This document shows, piece after piece, positions 11,005-16,734 of a stretch of 42,196 nucleotides of DNA. The position numbers and the translations under genes are program-made. The notes beneath the pieces were generated by a model. That model saw nothing but the letters and a program-made list of their open reading frames with translations. It was not told where the DNA came from and made no database searches. Origin of the DNA: Gluconobacter vitians (lineage in GTDB: Bacteria; Pseudomonadota; Alphaproteobacteria; Acetobacterales; Acetobacteraceae); assembly GCF_015244565.1 (NCBI RefSeq), contig NZ_JABCQG010000019.1, positions 1-42,196 of the forward strand. Reading direction: 5' to 3'. How positions within the stretch are numbered: the stretch's first letter is position 1; every line of letters starts with the position of its first letter.

Positions 11005-11912
11005 CAGCCGCGACGGCGCAGGATCAGTGTGGCCCAGTCGCCTTCACGCAGGATACGCTCCAGCACAAGACCCTGACGCTGGTGTGCGGCCAGCACCATC
11101 CGCGCCTGACTGTAAAGCAGACCGGCTAAAATAGCCGTCCCGTTCGGCGCAAGGTTCAGCGCCAGAGACTGCGCCATCCGACACAGCGGACGGGCGAGAA
11201 TATTGGCGAAGACCAGATCATACGGCGCCTTGGCGCGCACGGCCTCGGTCTGCCAGCCATTGCCGAAACGACAGTCCAGCAGATTGCCCTGACCGTTCAG
11301 GCGAGCATTGAGCTTCGCCGTTCGCACGGACCAAGGCTCGATATCGACGGCCAGAACCGGACGGTGCAGCAGCTTCGCCGCCGCCATCGCCAGAATGCCG
11401 GACCCGCAACCCATATCCAGAATACGCTGCGGCTTGCGATACGCGACCATCTCAAGTGCCCGCAGACACCCGCGCGTGGACCCATGCTCGCCCGAACCGA
11501 ACGCTATTCCCGCATCCAGCGTGATCGTCAGGCGCGACTGATCCGGCGCGCCATGCAGATGGGTGCCGCGAATGGCAAAACGCTTGCCGACATTCTGCTG
11601 CGGGAAGGATTCATAGGTCCGGGCCAGCCAGCCCTCGGACTCCGTCGGAATGCGTTCGAGTTCCGCTTCACAGCCGGTCAGCATCCTCGCCACGGCCAGA
11701 GCGTTTTCGAGCTCGTCTTCCTTGAAGCCCGTATCCTTCACGCCTTCCACACGCCAGTATTTCTGCGCGTCATCGGCCTCGAAAATGCCAACAGTCTCGC
11801 AGGCGCACATCAGGGCCTGTTCAAACAGGGGAACAAAGGGCTCTTCCACCGTGATGGACAGGGTTTCGAGCGCACTGGCATGGCGACGGCCAATGCTGCG
11901 GGGTGCCATCAC
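11004..11912 (-). CDS. prmA: Ribosomal protein L11 methyltransferase
   Basis: PrmA trimethylates ribosomal protein L11 with S-adenosylmethionine. The 302-residue length is standard. The N-terminal L11-recognition domain is followed by a class I methyltransferase fold with GIAFGSGEHGSTRGCLRAL (about 131-149), motif I ILDMGCGSGILAMAAAK, motif II VDIEPWSV, and DLVFANILARPL with the NIL motif near 220. It overlaps uvrD by four bases and the GNAT gene by one. Confidence 0.93.
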   Translation of the reverse strand: MMAPRSIGRRHASALETLSITVEEPFVPLFEQALMCACETVGIFEADDAQKYWRVEGVKDTGFKEDELENALAVARMLTGCEAELERIPTESEGWLARTYESFPQQNVGKRFAIRGTHLHGAPDQSRLTITLDAGIAFGSGEHGSTRGCLRALEMVAYRKPQRILDMGCGSGILAMAAAKLLHRPVLAVDIEPWSVRTAKLNARLNGQGNLLDCRFGNGWQTEAVRAKAPYDLVFANILARPLCRMAQSLALNLAPNGTAILAGLLYSQARMVLAAHQRQGLVLERILREGDWATLILRRRG

Positions 11913-14131
11913 GATCTGATCTCCACGAAGTTTGACATGACGCGTTTGACGCCACCGTTTTCAAAATTGATGTGCAATTGCGGCCCATCGGCCCCGATCA
12001 CCGTGCCCTCACCAAACCGGTGATGAAACACCGTGGTCCCGATGGCGACCGTCGGCGCTGGCTTCACATCATGAATTTTCGGACGTGGCGCCCGAAAGCC
12101 CGGCGGCCGCGTACTGGTCAGCGGCCCGGACGCAAACATGGACGGTGCCGCTGCGGCCTGCCGGCGCGTCTCGAATGCCTGTCCCGTCAACTGCACATAT
12201 TCGGACGGGATTTCCTCAATGAAGCGGCTCGGCATCGAGGACTGCCAGTTGGCATAGATCCGCCGGCTCGCCGCATGCAGCACGATCGCCCGACGCCGCG
12301 CGCGCGTCAGCCCTACGTAGGCCAGCCGCCGCTCTTCCTCGAGTGCCCGGTTGCCGCCCTCGTCGAGCGACCGCTGGGACGGGAACACACCTTCCTCCCA
12401 GCCCGGGAGGAACACGGTGTCGAACTCCAGCCCCTTGGCGCCATGCAGCGTCATGAGACTGACCTTGTCATCCGACGTCTCGCTCTCGGTATCCATGACG
12501 AGCGCCACATGCTCCAGAAAGCCCTGAAGCGTTCCAAATTCTCCAAGAGCCCTCAGAAGCTCACGGATATTGTCCAGACGCCCTGGCGCCTCGACGGAGC
12601 GGTCATCCCGCCACATTTGAAGATAGCCGCTATCCTCGAGAAGCTGTTCGGCGGCCACCACATGGCCTTCGCTCTCAAGCGTTGCCTTGGCCCGCTGGAA
12701 CGCCGCCATCAGCCCGTCCAATGCGTCCTTCGACTTGCCCTTGAGCAGCCCTTCCTGAAGCTGCCAGATCACAGCCGCCGTCAGCGGACCGGGCAGGGCA
12801 CGCGCCTGGGCATGCAGCTTCTGCACGGCCACGGCACCCACGCCACGCTTGGGAACATTGATGATCCGCTCAAACGCCAGATCATCCGCAGGCTGCGACA
12901 GTACACGCAGATACGCCAGACAGTCCCGGATTTCGGAGCGCTCGTAGAACCGCAGCCCACCAACAACCCGATATGGGATGCCGATCATCATCAGCCGCTC
13001 TTCGAACGGCCGCGTCTGGAAACCAGCGCGCATCAGGATGGCGATTTCCGACAGCGGATGTCCGTCACCGCGCAGACGCTCGATGGCACCCCCCACAATC
13101 CGCGCTTCCTCATCCGAATCGCGTACCCCGATGATCTGGACCTTCTCCCCCTGCGCATCATCGCGTCCGGGCCGCAGCGTCTTGCCCAGGCGTCCTTCGT
13201 TATGAGCGATCAGCCCGGCAGCCGCGGCGAGAATCTGTGCCGTCGAGCGGTAGTTCCGCTCCAGACGCACGACTTCCGCCCCCGGAAAATCCTTCTCGAA
13301 GCGCAGAATGTTTTCAACTTCCGCCCCGCGCCAGGAATAGATGGACTGATCATCATCACCCACACAGGCGATGTTGGATGGTCCGTGCTCGCGCTTGGCC
13401 AGCAGACGCAGCCACAGATACTGAACCGTATTCGTGTCCTGATATTCGTCCACGAGAATGTAGCGGAAAATCCGGTGATACTGCGCCAGAACATTGGGCT
13501 GGTTGCGCAGGATCTCCGTCATGTGCAGCATCAGATCGCCGAAATCGCATGTATTGAGCGCAATCAGACGCTCCTGATACGCCCGGTAAATCGCCAGAGC
13601 ATGACCATTCGCAAAATCGGAATCTTCGGCCGGCGTCACCCGGTCAGGTGTCAGCCCGCGATCCTTCCAGCGCTGGATGATCCCCATGAGTTGGTTCGGC
13701 GGCCAGCGCTTGGTATCGATCTTCCACGGTTCCATGACCTGCTTGAGCAGCCGGATCTGGTCATCCGTATCGAGGATGTTGAAGCTGCTCGTCAGCCCGA
13801 CATATTCCGCGTGACGCCGCAGCATTCGCGCACAGATCGAATGGAACGTTCCCAGCCACAGCCCTTCGGCCGGCTCGCCCAGAATCGCACTGACACGCTC
13901 GCGCATCTCGCGGGCGGCCTTGTTCGTGAACGTCACGGCCAGAATCTGGCTCGGATAGGCGCGGCCCGTCAGGAGAATATGGGCAAACCGCGTCGTCAGG
14001 ACGCGCGTCTTTCCCGTTCCCGCACCGGCGAGAATGAGGAGCGGGCCTTCGGTTGTCTCGATGGCACGTCTCTGCTCCGGGTTGAGGCGGGAGAGATACT
14101 CGGGGGTAGGGGAGGGTAGGTCTTGCGGCAC
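11909..14131 (-). CDS. uvrD: UvrD/PcrA/Rep-type superfamily 1 DNA helicase
   Basis: The 740-residue helicase unwinds DNA 3' to 5' in excision and mismatch repair. Walker A is LAGAGTGKT at about 34-42, with VDEYQDTN (motif II), DDDQSIYSWRGAE (motif III), LERNYRST (motif IV), MTLHGAKGLEFDTVFLPG (motif V) and VGLTRARR (motif VI). The last 60 residues contain GTTVFHHRFGEGTVIGADG, the PcrA/UvrD C-terminal module that contacts RNA polymerase. The start is taken as GTG at 14131. Residues further upstream read through the divergent radC gene and match nothing in the family. GGGAGG touches the GTG with no spacing, so initiation may be leaderless. It heads the uvrD-prmA-GNAT-pepP operon. Confidence 0.9.
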   Translation of the reverse strand: MPQDLPSPTPEYLSRLNPEQRRAIETTEGPLLILAGAGTGKTRVLTTRFAHILLTGRAYPSQILAVTFTNKAAREMRERVSAILGEPAEGLWLGTFHSICARMLRRHAEYVGLTSSFNILDTDDQIRLLKQVMEPWKIDTKRWPPNQLMGIIQRWKDRGLTPDRVTPAEDSDFANGHALAIYRAYQERLIALNTCDFGDLMLHMTEILRNQPNVLAQYHRIFRYILVDEYQDTNTVQYLWLRLLAKREHGPSNIACVGDDDQSIYSWRGAEVENILRFEKDFPGAEVVRLERNYRSTAQILAAAAGLIAHNEGRLGKTLRPGRDDAQGEKVQIIGVRDSDEEARIVGGAIERLRGDGHPLSEIAILMRAGFQTRPFEERLMMIGIPYRVVGGLRFYERSEIRDCLAYLRVLSQPADDLAFERIINVPKRGVGAVAVQKLHAQARALPGPLTAAVIWQLQEGLLKGKSKDALDGLMAAFQRAKATLESEGHVVAAEQLLEDSGYLQMWRDDRSVEAPGRLDNIRELLRALGEFGTLQGFLEHVALVMDTESETSDDKVSLMTLHGAKGLEFDTVFLPGWEEGVFPSQRSLDEGGNRALEEERRLAYVGLTRARRRAIVLHAASRRIYANWQSSMPSRFIEEIPSEYVQLTGQAFETRRQAAAAPSMFASGPLTSTRPPGFRAPRPKIHDVKPAPTVAIGTTVFHHRFGEGTVIGADGPQLHINFENGGVKRVMSNFVEIRS

Positions 14132-14158: not shown

Positions 14159-14848
14159 ATGGCCAACACATATCCCCGGATCGATCTGACACGCGGCACA
14201 GGACCTCAGGGACACCGCGCCAGAATGCGCGCCCGCGTGCTGGCCAATGGTGCCCACACGCTCGCCGATTACGAAATCCTTGAAATGCTGCTCTTCGCAG
14301 GTGTGCCACGCAAGGATACCAAACCGCTCGCCAAGGCACTGATCGGCCATTTCGGCAGTCTGGTGGATGTTTTCCGCGCACCCACACAAGCCCTGCGCGC
14401 CGCAGGACTGAAAGATGATACCATCAGGGTGCTGCGCCTTCCAGGAGTGGCGGCCGAACGTCTGGCCTCTTCGGAACAGCGTGAACGCCCGACACTGAGC
14501 AACTGGGAACAGCTCATGGCCTATCTCGATCAGGCACTTGAGGGCGGTGTTTCGGGGCAGTTCCGGCTGCTCTATCTCGACAACCGTAACCGGCTTCTGG
14601 CAGACGAAGCCGCGCCCGAGGCCGACAGTCTTGCGGATCGCAACCGCGCCATCGCCATCCGGGCCCTCGCACTGCATGCCACGGCCCTGATCGGTTTTCA
14701 CATTCGTCCCAAGGAACGCCCCGTAGATCTGTCACAATCAGCGCGGCAACTGGATTTCGCGATGCGTCCCCTGTCCATTACGCTTCACGACGTACTCATT
14801 GCAGGGGACGGGCGCCCGTCAAGCCTGCGTCAGGAAGGGCTGCTGTAA
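14159..14848 (+). CDS. RadC-family protein with a degenerate JAMM/MPN site
   Basis: The 229-residue protein has the usual RadC N-terminal region: GHRARMRARVLANGAHTLAD (18-37), then YEILEMLLFAGVPRKDTKPL, a close match to the HhH-type domain of standard RadC. The C-terminal domain is recognisable from FRLLYLDNRNRLLADEA and the end HDVLIAGDGRPSSLRQEGLL. However, the metal-binding HxHPSGDPxPSxxD block is replaced by HIRPKERPVDLSQS (181-194): the second histidine is arginine 183 and the aspartate is lost. The PREV helix segment is also gone. It should not bind zinc or act as a peptidase. The second radC starts right after its stop, so the pair is co-transcribed. AGAGTGAG is the likely ribosome binding site. 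Confidence 0.85.
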   Translation: MANTYPRIDLTRGTGPQGHRARMRARVLANGAHTLADYEILEMLLFAGVPRKDTKPLAKALIGHFGSLVDVFRAPTQALRAAGLKDDTIRVLRLPGVAAERLASSEQRERPTLSNWEQLMAYLDQALEGGVSGQFRLLYLDNRNRLLADEAAPEADSLADRNRAIAIRALALHATALIGFHIRPKERPVDLSQSARQLDFAMRPLSITLHDVLIAGDGRPSSLRQEGLL

Positions 14849-14849
14849 G

Positions 14850-15605
14850 GTGGACGACAGGAACGCTGGAACAACCGGATTTTCGGATGGCATGACAGGC
14901 CTGTCGTCAGCCGATCTGCGACAGATTTCGGCGCTGACGGAAACTCTTCCCGAAATAGAACCGCCGCTTGCCTTGCTGACGGGGCGGGGGCGGCATCTGG
15001 ACGATGCGACCCTGCTGCATCTCCTGACCGTGCTGTTCACCGGACGGGAAACGGGCAGCGCGGCACTACCACACAATCTCTTGGCGCGTTTTGGCTCTCT
15101 GGCCGCTGTCCTGTCCGCCACAGATCGGGAACTCGAAAGCATCACGGATATGGGCACGCACATGTTGCCCATGATCCGTGTTCTTCAGGAAGCAGCACTT
15201 CGCTATAATCGTGCGCGCCTGCCGCCGGAAGACGTGCTCGACAACGAACAGAAACTGCTCGACTACCTCACGGCCCGTCTGGCGCGGGAAAACATTGAGC
15301 AGTTCCGCATCCTGTTTCTCAACGAAAAGAACAGCCTGATTGCTGACGAAGCGCAGGCCAGAGGCACGGTCAACCACACGCCTGTCTATCCACGGGAAGT
15401 CGCCAGACGCGCTGTGGAAATTGGCGCCACCGCGCTGGTTCTGGTCCACAACCATCCGAGCGGCGATCCCACGCCCTCGGAAGCCGATCTTCAGATGACC
15501 ATGCAGGTTCAGGCGGCACTCGAAGTGGTCGGCGTTACGATCGCGGACCACTTCATCATCGGCAACGGCCGCCACACCAGCTTTCGCCGCAGCAACCTGC
15601 TCTGA
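14850..15605 (+). CDS. radC: RadC-family protein with intact JAMM motif (second of tandem pair)
   Basis: The 251 residues (GTG start) end in a full RadC MPN domain: FRILFLNEKNSLIADEAQ, RGTVNHTPVYPREVARRA, HNHPSGDPTPSEAD with His200, His202 and Asp213, and DHFIIGNGRHTSFR. The N-terminal half is divergent and lacks the usual DYELLELLL pattern, keeping only LLARFGSLAAVL. The GTG at 14850 is one base after the upstream stop, with GGAAGG inside the upstream gene. ATG at 14892 is the alternative; an ATG at 14799 would add residues inside the first radC and is less likely. RadC proteins have no proven biochemical role, although recombination and natural transformation have been proposed. Confidence 0.88.
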   Translation: MDDRNAGTTGFSDGMTGLSSADLRQISALTETLPEIEPPLALLTGRGRHLDDATLLHLLTVLFTGRETGSAALPHNLLARFGSLAAVLSATDRELESITDMGTHMLPMIRVLQEAALRYNRARLPPEDVLDNEQKLLDYLTARLARENIEQFRILFLNEKNSLIADEAQARGTVNHTPVYPREVARRAVEIGATALVLVHNHPSGDPTPSEADLQMTMQVQAALEVVGVTIADHFIIGNGRHTSFRRSNLL

Positions 15606-15609
15606 AACC

Positions 15610-16734
15610 TCAGCCGCGCGGCGGCACAAGCCCTTCAAGCGCCAGTTCTCCAGGAAGGGCACCACGCGGGAAGATGGTGTTTACATGCCCCATCTTGCGT
15701 CCTGGACGCGCTTCGGCCTTACCGTACAGATGCAGCGATGCCCCGTCCGTTGCAAGAATGGCCGGAACACGCGCCATGTCTTCGGGACCAATCAGATTGT
15801 GCATGATGGCATCGGAATGCCGACGTGAAGGCGGCAGCGGCAAACCCGCCACCGCCCGCACATGCATCTCGAACTGATCTACCAGACACGCATCCATGGT
15901 CCAGTGCCCGGAATTATGCGGGCGAGGGGCGATCTCGTTCACCATGAGACTGCCATCAGCAGCGTGGAACATCTCCACCCCCATGATCCCCACCAGCCCC
16001 AGCGCCTCGGCAATTCTGGCCGCCATGTCCTGCGCCTGACGCGCAAGGTCCGGCATGATGCGGGCCGGGGCCAGCGTCACGTCCAGGATACCGTTGCGGT
16101 GCCGGTTCTCGACTGTATCAAAACACCGCACGGTTCCGTCCAGCCCACGGACCACCATCACGCTGAGCTCACGCTCGAAATCGATCATCTTCTCCGCAAC
16201 GAGCGGGTAGGGCAGATCCTTCAGGGCTGCGAGGGCCTCGGCATCCAACACCCGGAACTGACCCTTACCGTCGTAACCGAAGCGGGTCGTCTTGAGAATG
16301 AGCGGAAAACCGAGCGTCTCAAGCCCTGCCAGATCCTCGGGGCCATTGACGGCCCGCCAGGGGGCCAGACTGACGCCGATTTCGGACAGACGCGTCTTTT
16401 CCGCAATCCGGTCCTGACTGATCCGCAGGATTTCCCCCGCAGGTCGCACCGGCCGATGCTTCTCCAGCAGAGCCAGCCCTTCGGCACTGATATTCTCGAA
16501 CTCAAACGTCACGACATCACAGCGCGAGGCAAAATCCTCAAGCGCCGCCGGATCGTCATAGGCCCCGACCGTTACCGACGCCGCGACTTCCGTAGCCGGG
16601 CTTGGCGCCTCGGTGCTCAGCACATGAACATGAAAGCCAAGCTTCGAGGCCGCCACGGCTGACATGCGGCCAAGCTGGCCACCACCAATGATCCCGATCG
16701 TGCTGCCGGGAGCAAAAACCTTCTGCTTCGTCAT
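15610..16734 (-). CDS. purK: N5-carboxyaminoimidazole ribonucleotide synthase
   Basis: PurK uses ATP and bicarbonate to carboxylate AIR to N5-CAIR in purine synthesis. The 374 residues have the N-terminal [17 protein letters not shown], then an ATP-grasp domain with [15 protein letters not shown] (phosphate-binding loop) and [25 protein letters not shown], where the metal-binding glutamate and asparagine lie. It overlaps purE by four bases and is last in the ydcH-purE-purK unit. Its end is convergent with the second radC, four bases apart. Confidence 0.95.

Follow-up and report, generated by a model that had tools for sequence, protein, structure and literature searches.

Can the functions of one RadC protein be divided between two adjacent genes? 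This question is raised by a tandem pair of radC genes in Gluconobacter vitians (Acetobacteraceae), located within the 42,196-nucleotide stretch of contig NZ_JABCQG010000019.1 (assembly GCF_015244565.1) that is called the window. We refer to the upstream gene as radC-A, to the downstream gene as radC-B, and to their products and orthologs as A and B. In canonical RadC/UPF0758 proteins (NF000642, TIGR00608; structure 2QLC) an N-terminal domain (N-domain) and a metal site are found in one chain; here they are split over two genes. We consider it quite likely that a duplicated RadC degenerated in complementary ways and that A and B now work as an obligate unit, most probably a heterodimer held together by its JAB domains. 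No description of a dead/active RadC gene pair was found in searches of the open PMC literature, which leaves most subscription journals outside.

Results

A catalytically dead and an active-site RadC in tandem

An earlier note on this DNA, made from the letters alone, had described a dead radC copy followed by a copy with an active site, and its coordinates, reading frames and motifs were all confirmed (Table 1). At the position of the canonical RadC LVHNHPSGDxxPSxxD, radC-A reads ALIGFHIRPKERPVDLS; the second metal-binding His and the Asp are gone, as had been claimed, and so is the Ser. The N-domain of A is of the standard type, with a Pfam UPF0758_N match of 28.2 bits (cut-off 27.1) over residues 21-84, and a RadC-JAB match of 53.2 bits identifies a RadC-type JAB fold. 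B keeps HNHPSGDPTPSEAD with the complete JAMM set (HxH, S and D) and scored 139.6 bits against RadC-JAB (PF04002). The Pfam search gave no UPF0758_N match in B, in agreement with the divergent N-terminus reported for it, although this eroded N-domain is still predicted to be helical in a structure model of a sister species. B exceeded the curated NCBIfam cut-offs (NF000642, 185.5 bits against 180; TIGR00608, 182.6 against 133.85) and A fell below both (95.6 and 98.3 bits, respectively). The GTG start of radC-B at 14850 lies one base past the TAA of radC-A (14846-14848) on the same strand, the spacing that had been read from the sequence, and several radC-B orthologs have an ATG start at the same place (TAAGATG). 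The genome of the window (3.16 Mb) has no PF04002 matches other than radC-A and radC-B (E <= 0.001), and the radC-A gene is 86% identical to its counterpart in Gluconobacter sp. Dm-62.

Table 1. Positions of the radC pair and flanking genes in the window, and of arrays found at related loci
Feature	Position	Strand	Remarks
radC-A	14159..14848	+	229 aa; canonical RadC/UPF0758 N-domain and catalytically dead JAB (MPN-minus), predicted
radC-A N-domain	14210..14473	+	residues 18-105; GHRARMR and DTKPLAK motifs retained
radC-A degenerate JAMM block HIRPKERP	14699..14722	+	residues 181-188; from sequence
radC-B	14850..15605	+	251 aa; degenerate N-domain and intact JAMM (MPN-plus), predicted
radC-B eroded N-domain	14955..15224	+	residues 36-125; without UPF0758_N match
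radC-B JAMM motif HNHPSGDPTPSEAD	15447..15488	+	residues 200-213; from sequence
uvrD/pcrA-type helicase	11909..14131	-	divergent neighbour of radC-A, many genera
purK	15610..16734	-	convergent neighbour of radC-B, many genera
CRISPR-like arrays	L081:1938-2279, L073:2474-2624, L064:1813-2146		L073 repeat GTGTTCCCCGCACATGCGGGGATGAACCG

Conserved RadC residues are divided between A and B

The conserved residues of RadC are divided complementarily between A and B. Frames from the pair loci (the window, L062-L090 and L201-L254) were sorted solely by the higher-scoring of an A and a B profile, with a threshold of at least 90 bits; five fragments below 90 bits were excluded, and among the B-type frames are two additional short RadCs as well as a piece of an interrupted B. 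HxHx7SxxD was present in 0/70 A-type frames and 74/74 B-type frames. The GHR motif was present in 69/70 A-type frames, the remaining one being truncated by a contig end, and in a single one of the 74 B-type frames, which is a natural fusion described below.

Column conservation was compared in an aligned set of 81 distinct A, 82 distinct B and 72 distinct canonical RadCs (from 87, 87 and 74 including duplicates), from which the two extra short RadCs, the fusion, fragments and an A at a contig end were excluded. The canonical RadCs had been picked for having both the N-domain and the metal site, and the set was sorted partly by the two motifs, so that motif totals in it are not independent. Relative to the canonical RadCs, A retained on average 90% and B 38% of 28 canonical N-domain columns; for 55 JAB columns the values were 46% and 84%. 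Because of the partial sorting by motif, the comparison was repeated without the motif columns. A then retained 88% and B 43% of the N-domain (24 columns), and 48% and 83%, respectively, of the JAB domain (51 columns). Columns kept by a single partner were distributed 13 A : 1 B in the N-domain and 6 A : 25 B in the JAB domain (Fisher p 4e-6, in a test that treats columns as independent, which they are not). Among the metal-site residues, the first His survived in 24 of the 81 A, the second His in 9, the Ser in 1, the Asp in 16 and the upstream Glu in 73. The canonical His-Asp-His was itself divided, its first His being kept in 69/81 A and 7/82 B and its second in 23/81 A and 81/82 B.

A separate case was observed in a metagenome-assembled genome (L190, ~5319), where an otherwise canonical RadC reads VHNPPSGD, with the second metal His changed to Pro, which could reflect an error or an isolated inactivation.

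Both genes are retained in most genomes examined

PF04002 was matched in 382 of 397 family genomes and in 8 of 14 well-known control genomes. All 26 genomes of the genus (that of the window and 25 relatives) had exactly two matches, one strong and one weak, corresponding to B and A. For the search across Acetobacteraceae that the earlier note had proposed, 48 family genomes were hand-picked, most of them for showing two matches with a lower best score, the others with a single match or no match at all; A and B were kept together as separate genes in 42 of them (A of G034 and B of G329 being cut by a contig end), a count that is not that of a random sample. The other six consisted of one fused pair (G114), one interrupted B (G174), one genome with remnants (G377) and three in which neither A nor B was found (G078, G164 and G125). 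Neither gene was found in a congener of G125 (G191, completeness 85). The 48 genomes carry 24 genus labels, of which 22 include a match, and addition of the genus of the window, G026 and G033 brings the total to ~25 labels. Named records with both genes in one locus include Gluconobacter, an uncultured Neokomagataea, Tanticharoenia, Asaia bogorensis GD-01, Acetobacter pasteurianus, Bombella and Lichenicoccus.

In seven genomes (G413, G338, G291, G089, G170, G220 and G062) A and B lie at least 78 kb apart, and both are retained. In G377 an A remnant stands beside uvrD and a B remnant beside purK, both decayed; its eight congeners with two matches each are G089, G170, G220, G260, G291, G320, G342 and G362, four of which were read. 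Inheritance of A and B appears to be joint, as does their occasional loss. The purK adjoining the decayed radC-B of G377 (L254, L295) has one internal TAA, and this small genome may therefore be eroding there more widely.

Both copies are under purifying constraint

The ratio of nonsynonymous to synonymous substitution rates (dN/dS) was calculated as pairwise medians over 20 of the 26 genus loci, with saturated pairs (6 to 60 of 190, by region) set aside. The median was 0.083 for A (N-domain 0.060, JAB 0.104) and 0.093 for B (leader 0.336, N-domain 0.112, JAB 0.037). The degenerate copy, for which the earlier note had suggested this measurement, thus gave ~0.08, and both copies are constrained. 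The value for the JAB domain of A indicates that the dead JAB remains constrained; it is also retained as a fold. The possibility that the degenerate copy is pseudogenised or absent in close relatives had been raised as well, and A was open in 25/25 same-genus relatives.

A natural fusion and rate covariation link A with B

One genome (G114) carries an A-like half followed by a B-like JAB half in one frame of 626 codons, with 621 residues from the first Met. Its A N-part scored 83.1 bits, its dead JAB 12.6 and its B-like JAB, with an intact motif, 137.8. The frame looks like a Rosetta-stone fusion, in this one genome only.

Covariation was assessed from pairwise distances in 32 genomes, thinned from the 58 with A, B, UvrD and PurK. 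The A-B distance correlation was 0.906, and the partial correlation after removal of UvrD and PurK was 0.722; control values were 0.014 for A-PurK, 0.075 for B-UvrD and 0.102 for B-PurK. At the domain level the dead JAB and the active JAB gave the highest value (0.736), with 0.495 for the two domains of A and 0.403 for those of B. Without the fast small-genome lineages, which we picked ourselves (20 genomes left), JAB-JAB covariation was 0.892, that within A 0.76 and that within B 0.799, and the A N-domain covaried with the B JAB at 0.841. The JAB-JAB covariation suggests, without proving it, that the JAB domains are in contact. The heterodimer of a DNA-binding and a metal-site RadC that the earlier note had suggested is therefore upheld in part: the division of residues, the joint fate, the fusion frame and the covariation speak for it; physical contact and DNA binding by A are inferred.

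Alternatively, A and B could be subfunctionalised paralogs in the same pathway that make no contact, with A binding nucleic acid and B acting as a free JAB enzyme. A shared pathway would also produce joint loss, and the genes are non-adjacent in many genera and far apart in seven genomes. We regard this arrangement as unlikely, because it does not account well for a JAB-JAB covariation that tops that of A's own domains (0.736 against 0.495), for a dead JAB kept under selection (dN/dS 0.104) and as a fold, or for the natural fusion frame.

The A and B groups each appear to have one origin

Trees were built from hand-picked representatives, with 37 canonical RadCs as comparison in the full-length A tree. 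Support was evaluated by the Shimodaira-Hasegawa-like approximate likelihood ratio test (SH-aLRT). At full length 33 A formed one group against the canonical RadCs (SH-aLRT 100), on the N-domain alone 32 A formed one group (91), and on the JAB domain 32 B did so (94). The inner order of the A and B trees was broadly similar, with the Roseomonas type nearest to the canonical RadCs, Lichenicoccus and its kin further away and most acetic acid bacteria furthest; many inner nodes had weak support, and some long branches occur. The trees favour a single origin of the A and B groups.

Repeated independent degenerations in place of one event appear quite improbable. Long branches warn of a tree artefact, neither uvrD nor purK was found next to the Roseomonas pairs, and a Roseomonas plasmid RadC with an HHQP block indicates that degeneration can recur. 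Such a history is at odds with the N-domain-only A tree and the JAB-only B tree, each of which gives one group, with the broad likeness of the two trees inside these groups, and with the synteny common to most non-Roseomonas pairs.

The HHQP protein combines an intact N-domain with an altered JAMM block, VHHQPNAAPAPSRAE, and is apparently encoded on plasmid NZ_CP061097.1 of Roseomonas marmotae (L282; G423 contig 7). Its genome holds two other RadCs, and this copy is perhaps an independent degeneration. Elioraea tepidiphila (L130) carries a tandem of two canonical radC genes, both intact and ~1 kb apart (frames from ~3960 and ~4957), which resembles a pre-split stage.

A third possibility is that A has neofunctionalised and, though RadC-descended, now acts independently in DNA binding or regulation, in keeping with its stable niche beside uvrD in many genera and its strongly conserved N-domain (dN/dS 0.060). 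This predicts A without B, a situation that among the pairs read only G174 (B with one internal TGA) approaches, and A covaries with B; we consider it very improbable. That A is a decaying pseudogene or an inconsequential duplication, as the lost metal site might suggest, is scarcely credible and was rejected on the basis of the open frame in 25/25 genus relatives, the dN/dS of ~0.08 and the retention under ~25 genus labels.

Neighbouring genes and intergenic elements

Neighbours were counted over 97 pair loci, some with a single gene, some from genomes represented twice, and with flanks often of only ~1.5 kb; uvrD was found in 70 of these and purK in 66. For unlinked pairs, uvrD was present at the A locus in 4 of 6 searched and purK at the B locus in 5 of 7, and neither was seen at the loci of G413 and G338. 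An antisense gene of ~230 codons for a HAD-type phosphatase lies between A and B at some loci (e.g. L244, L213, L220 and L226); a tblastn search of the window with one such protein gave no match. Three genus genomes have a short CRISPR-like array between radC-A and radC-B, with ~29-nt repeats and a 61-nt period (Table 1).

Discussion

We propose that an ancestral member of the Acetobacteraceae duplicated its radC gene and that the copies decayed in complementary ways. A would have retained the N-domain, with a basic GHRxRxR segment and helix-hairpin-helix-like helices that presumably bind nucleic acid, together with the JAB fold, and lost the metal site. B would have retained the metal site, and with it probably a metal hydrolase activity, and lost conserved N-domain residues. 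The two proteins would form an obligate heterodimer, most likely via the JAB domains, with A targeting and supporting the active site of B, as MPN-minus proteins do for MPN-plus proteins in eukaryotes, and this pair would take the place of the single RadC in acetic acid bacteria. The proposal builds on what was computed here, namely that the losses are complementary, that both genes are conserved, under selection and inherited jointly, that one fusion frame exists and that rates covary.

Several observations weigh against it. The fusion comes from one genome, the only one of its genus in the set analysed, and its dead JAB part matches weakly. A structure model of fused A and B (predicted template modelling score 0.63) leaves physical contact between them presumptive. 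Some controls covary too (A-UvrD 0.421, UvrD-PurK 0.431), and shared lineage rates were therefore not fully removed. A and B do not form one operon in many genera and are unlinked in the seven genomes listed above, and the antisense phosphatase gene separates them in 18 of the 21 examined loci with a gap >300 bases. Co-occurrence was counted in hand-chosen genomes, G174 has an intact A with an interrupted B, and for Acetobacter sacchari (L125) only A was found within 12.7 kb, the rest of the genome not having been searched under that name. Finally, three Roseomonas mucosa kin (G150, G206 and G281) have three PF04002 matches each. The third RadC is fully canonical in G281 and G206, and divergent without the GHR motif in G107; as Roseomonas genomes hold a canonical RadC in addition to the pair, the pair need not replace RadC everywhere.

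Dead/live MPN pairs are known from eukaryotes, where they act on ubiquitin or Nedd8. Like BRCC36-KIAA0157, Rpn11-Rpn8 and CSN5-CSN6, the RadC pair joins an active JAMM protein to a sister that shares its fold and lacks the metal; unlike in those pairs, the dead subunit here also holds the presumed DNA-binding domain. XPF-ERCC1 and Mus81-Eme1 are heterodimeric nucleases of active and inactive paralogs with helix-hairpin-helix domains, although their catalytic fold is unrelated to that of the RadC pair and the likeness is one of analogy only. JAMM motifs are reported to bind zinc (PMC300881), and a dead MPN subunit to activate its live sister (PMC4579573). It has been argued that the RadC-type JAB has no ubiquitin-tail groove and that it may process nucleic acid (PMC5512222). 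A role of RadC in repair has been proposed and disputed (PMC5512222, PMC11981726), and Zymomonas mobilis radC is among listed thermotolerance genes (PMC5571576). RadC-like DinG resembles the pair in that a RadC-like JAB is joined to a DNA-acting module; it differs in being a helicase fusion, with no dead partner described in the relevant portion of that report, where its function is given as unstudied (PMC11981726).

It is fairly likely that acetic acid bacteria use RadC as an obligate heterodimer, with one JAMM subunit and one DNA-binding pseudo-JAMM subunit. This would be a bacterial counterpart of the eukaryotic MPN-minus/MPN-plus pairs that arose when the copies of one duplicated gene degenerated in complementary ways, and whose stages are still extant: tandem intact copies (Elioraea), RadC plus the pair (Roseomonas), and the pair only, unlinked, fused or lost (acetic acid bacteria). 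These would provide a natural step series for the evolution of an obligate heterodimer. RadC is widespread and its function disputed, and a split into targeting and catalytic halves would show which residues serve which job. The split gives a clean genetic handle on RadC and makes RadC dimerisation testable. If true, it extends the dead/live MPN pair to a bacterial family.
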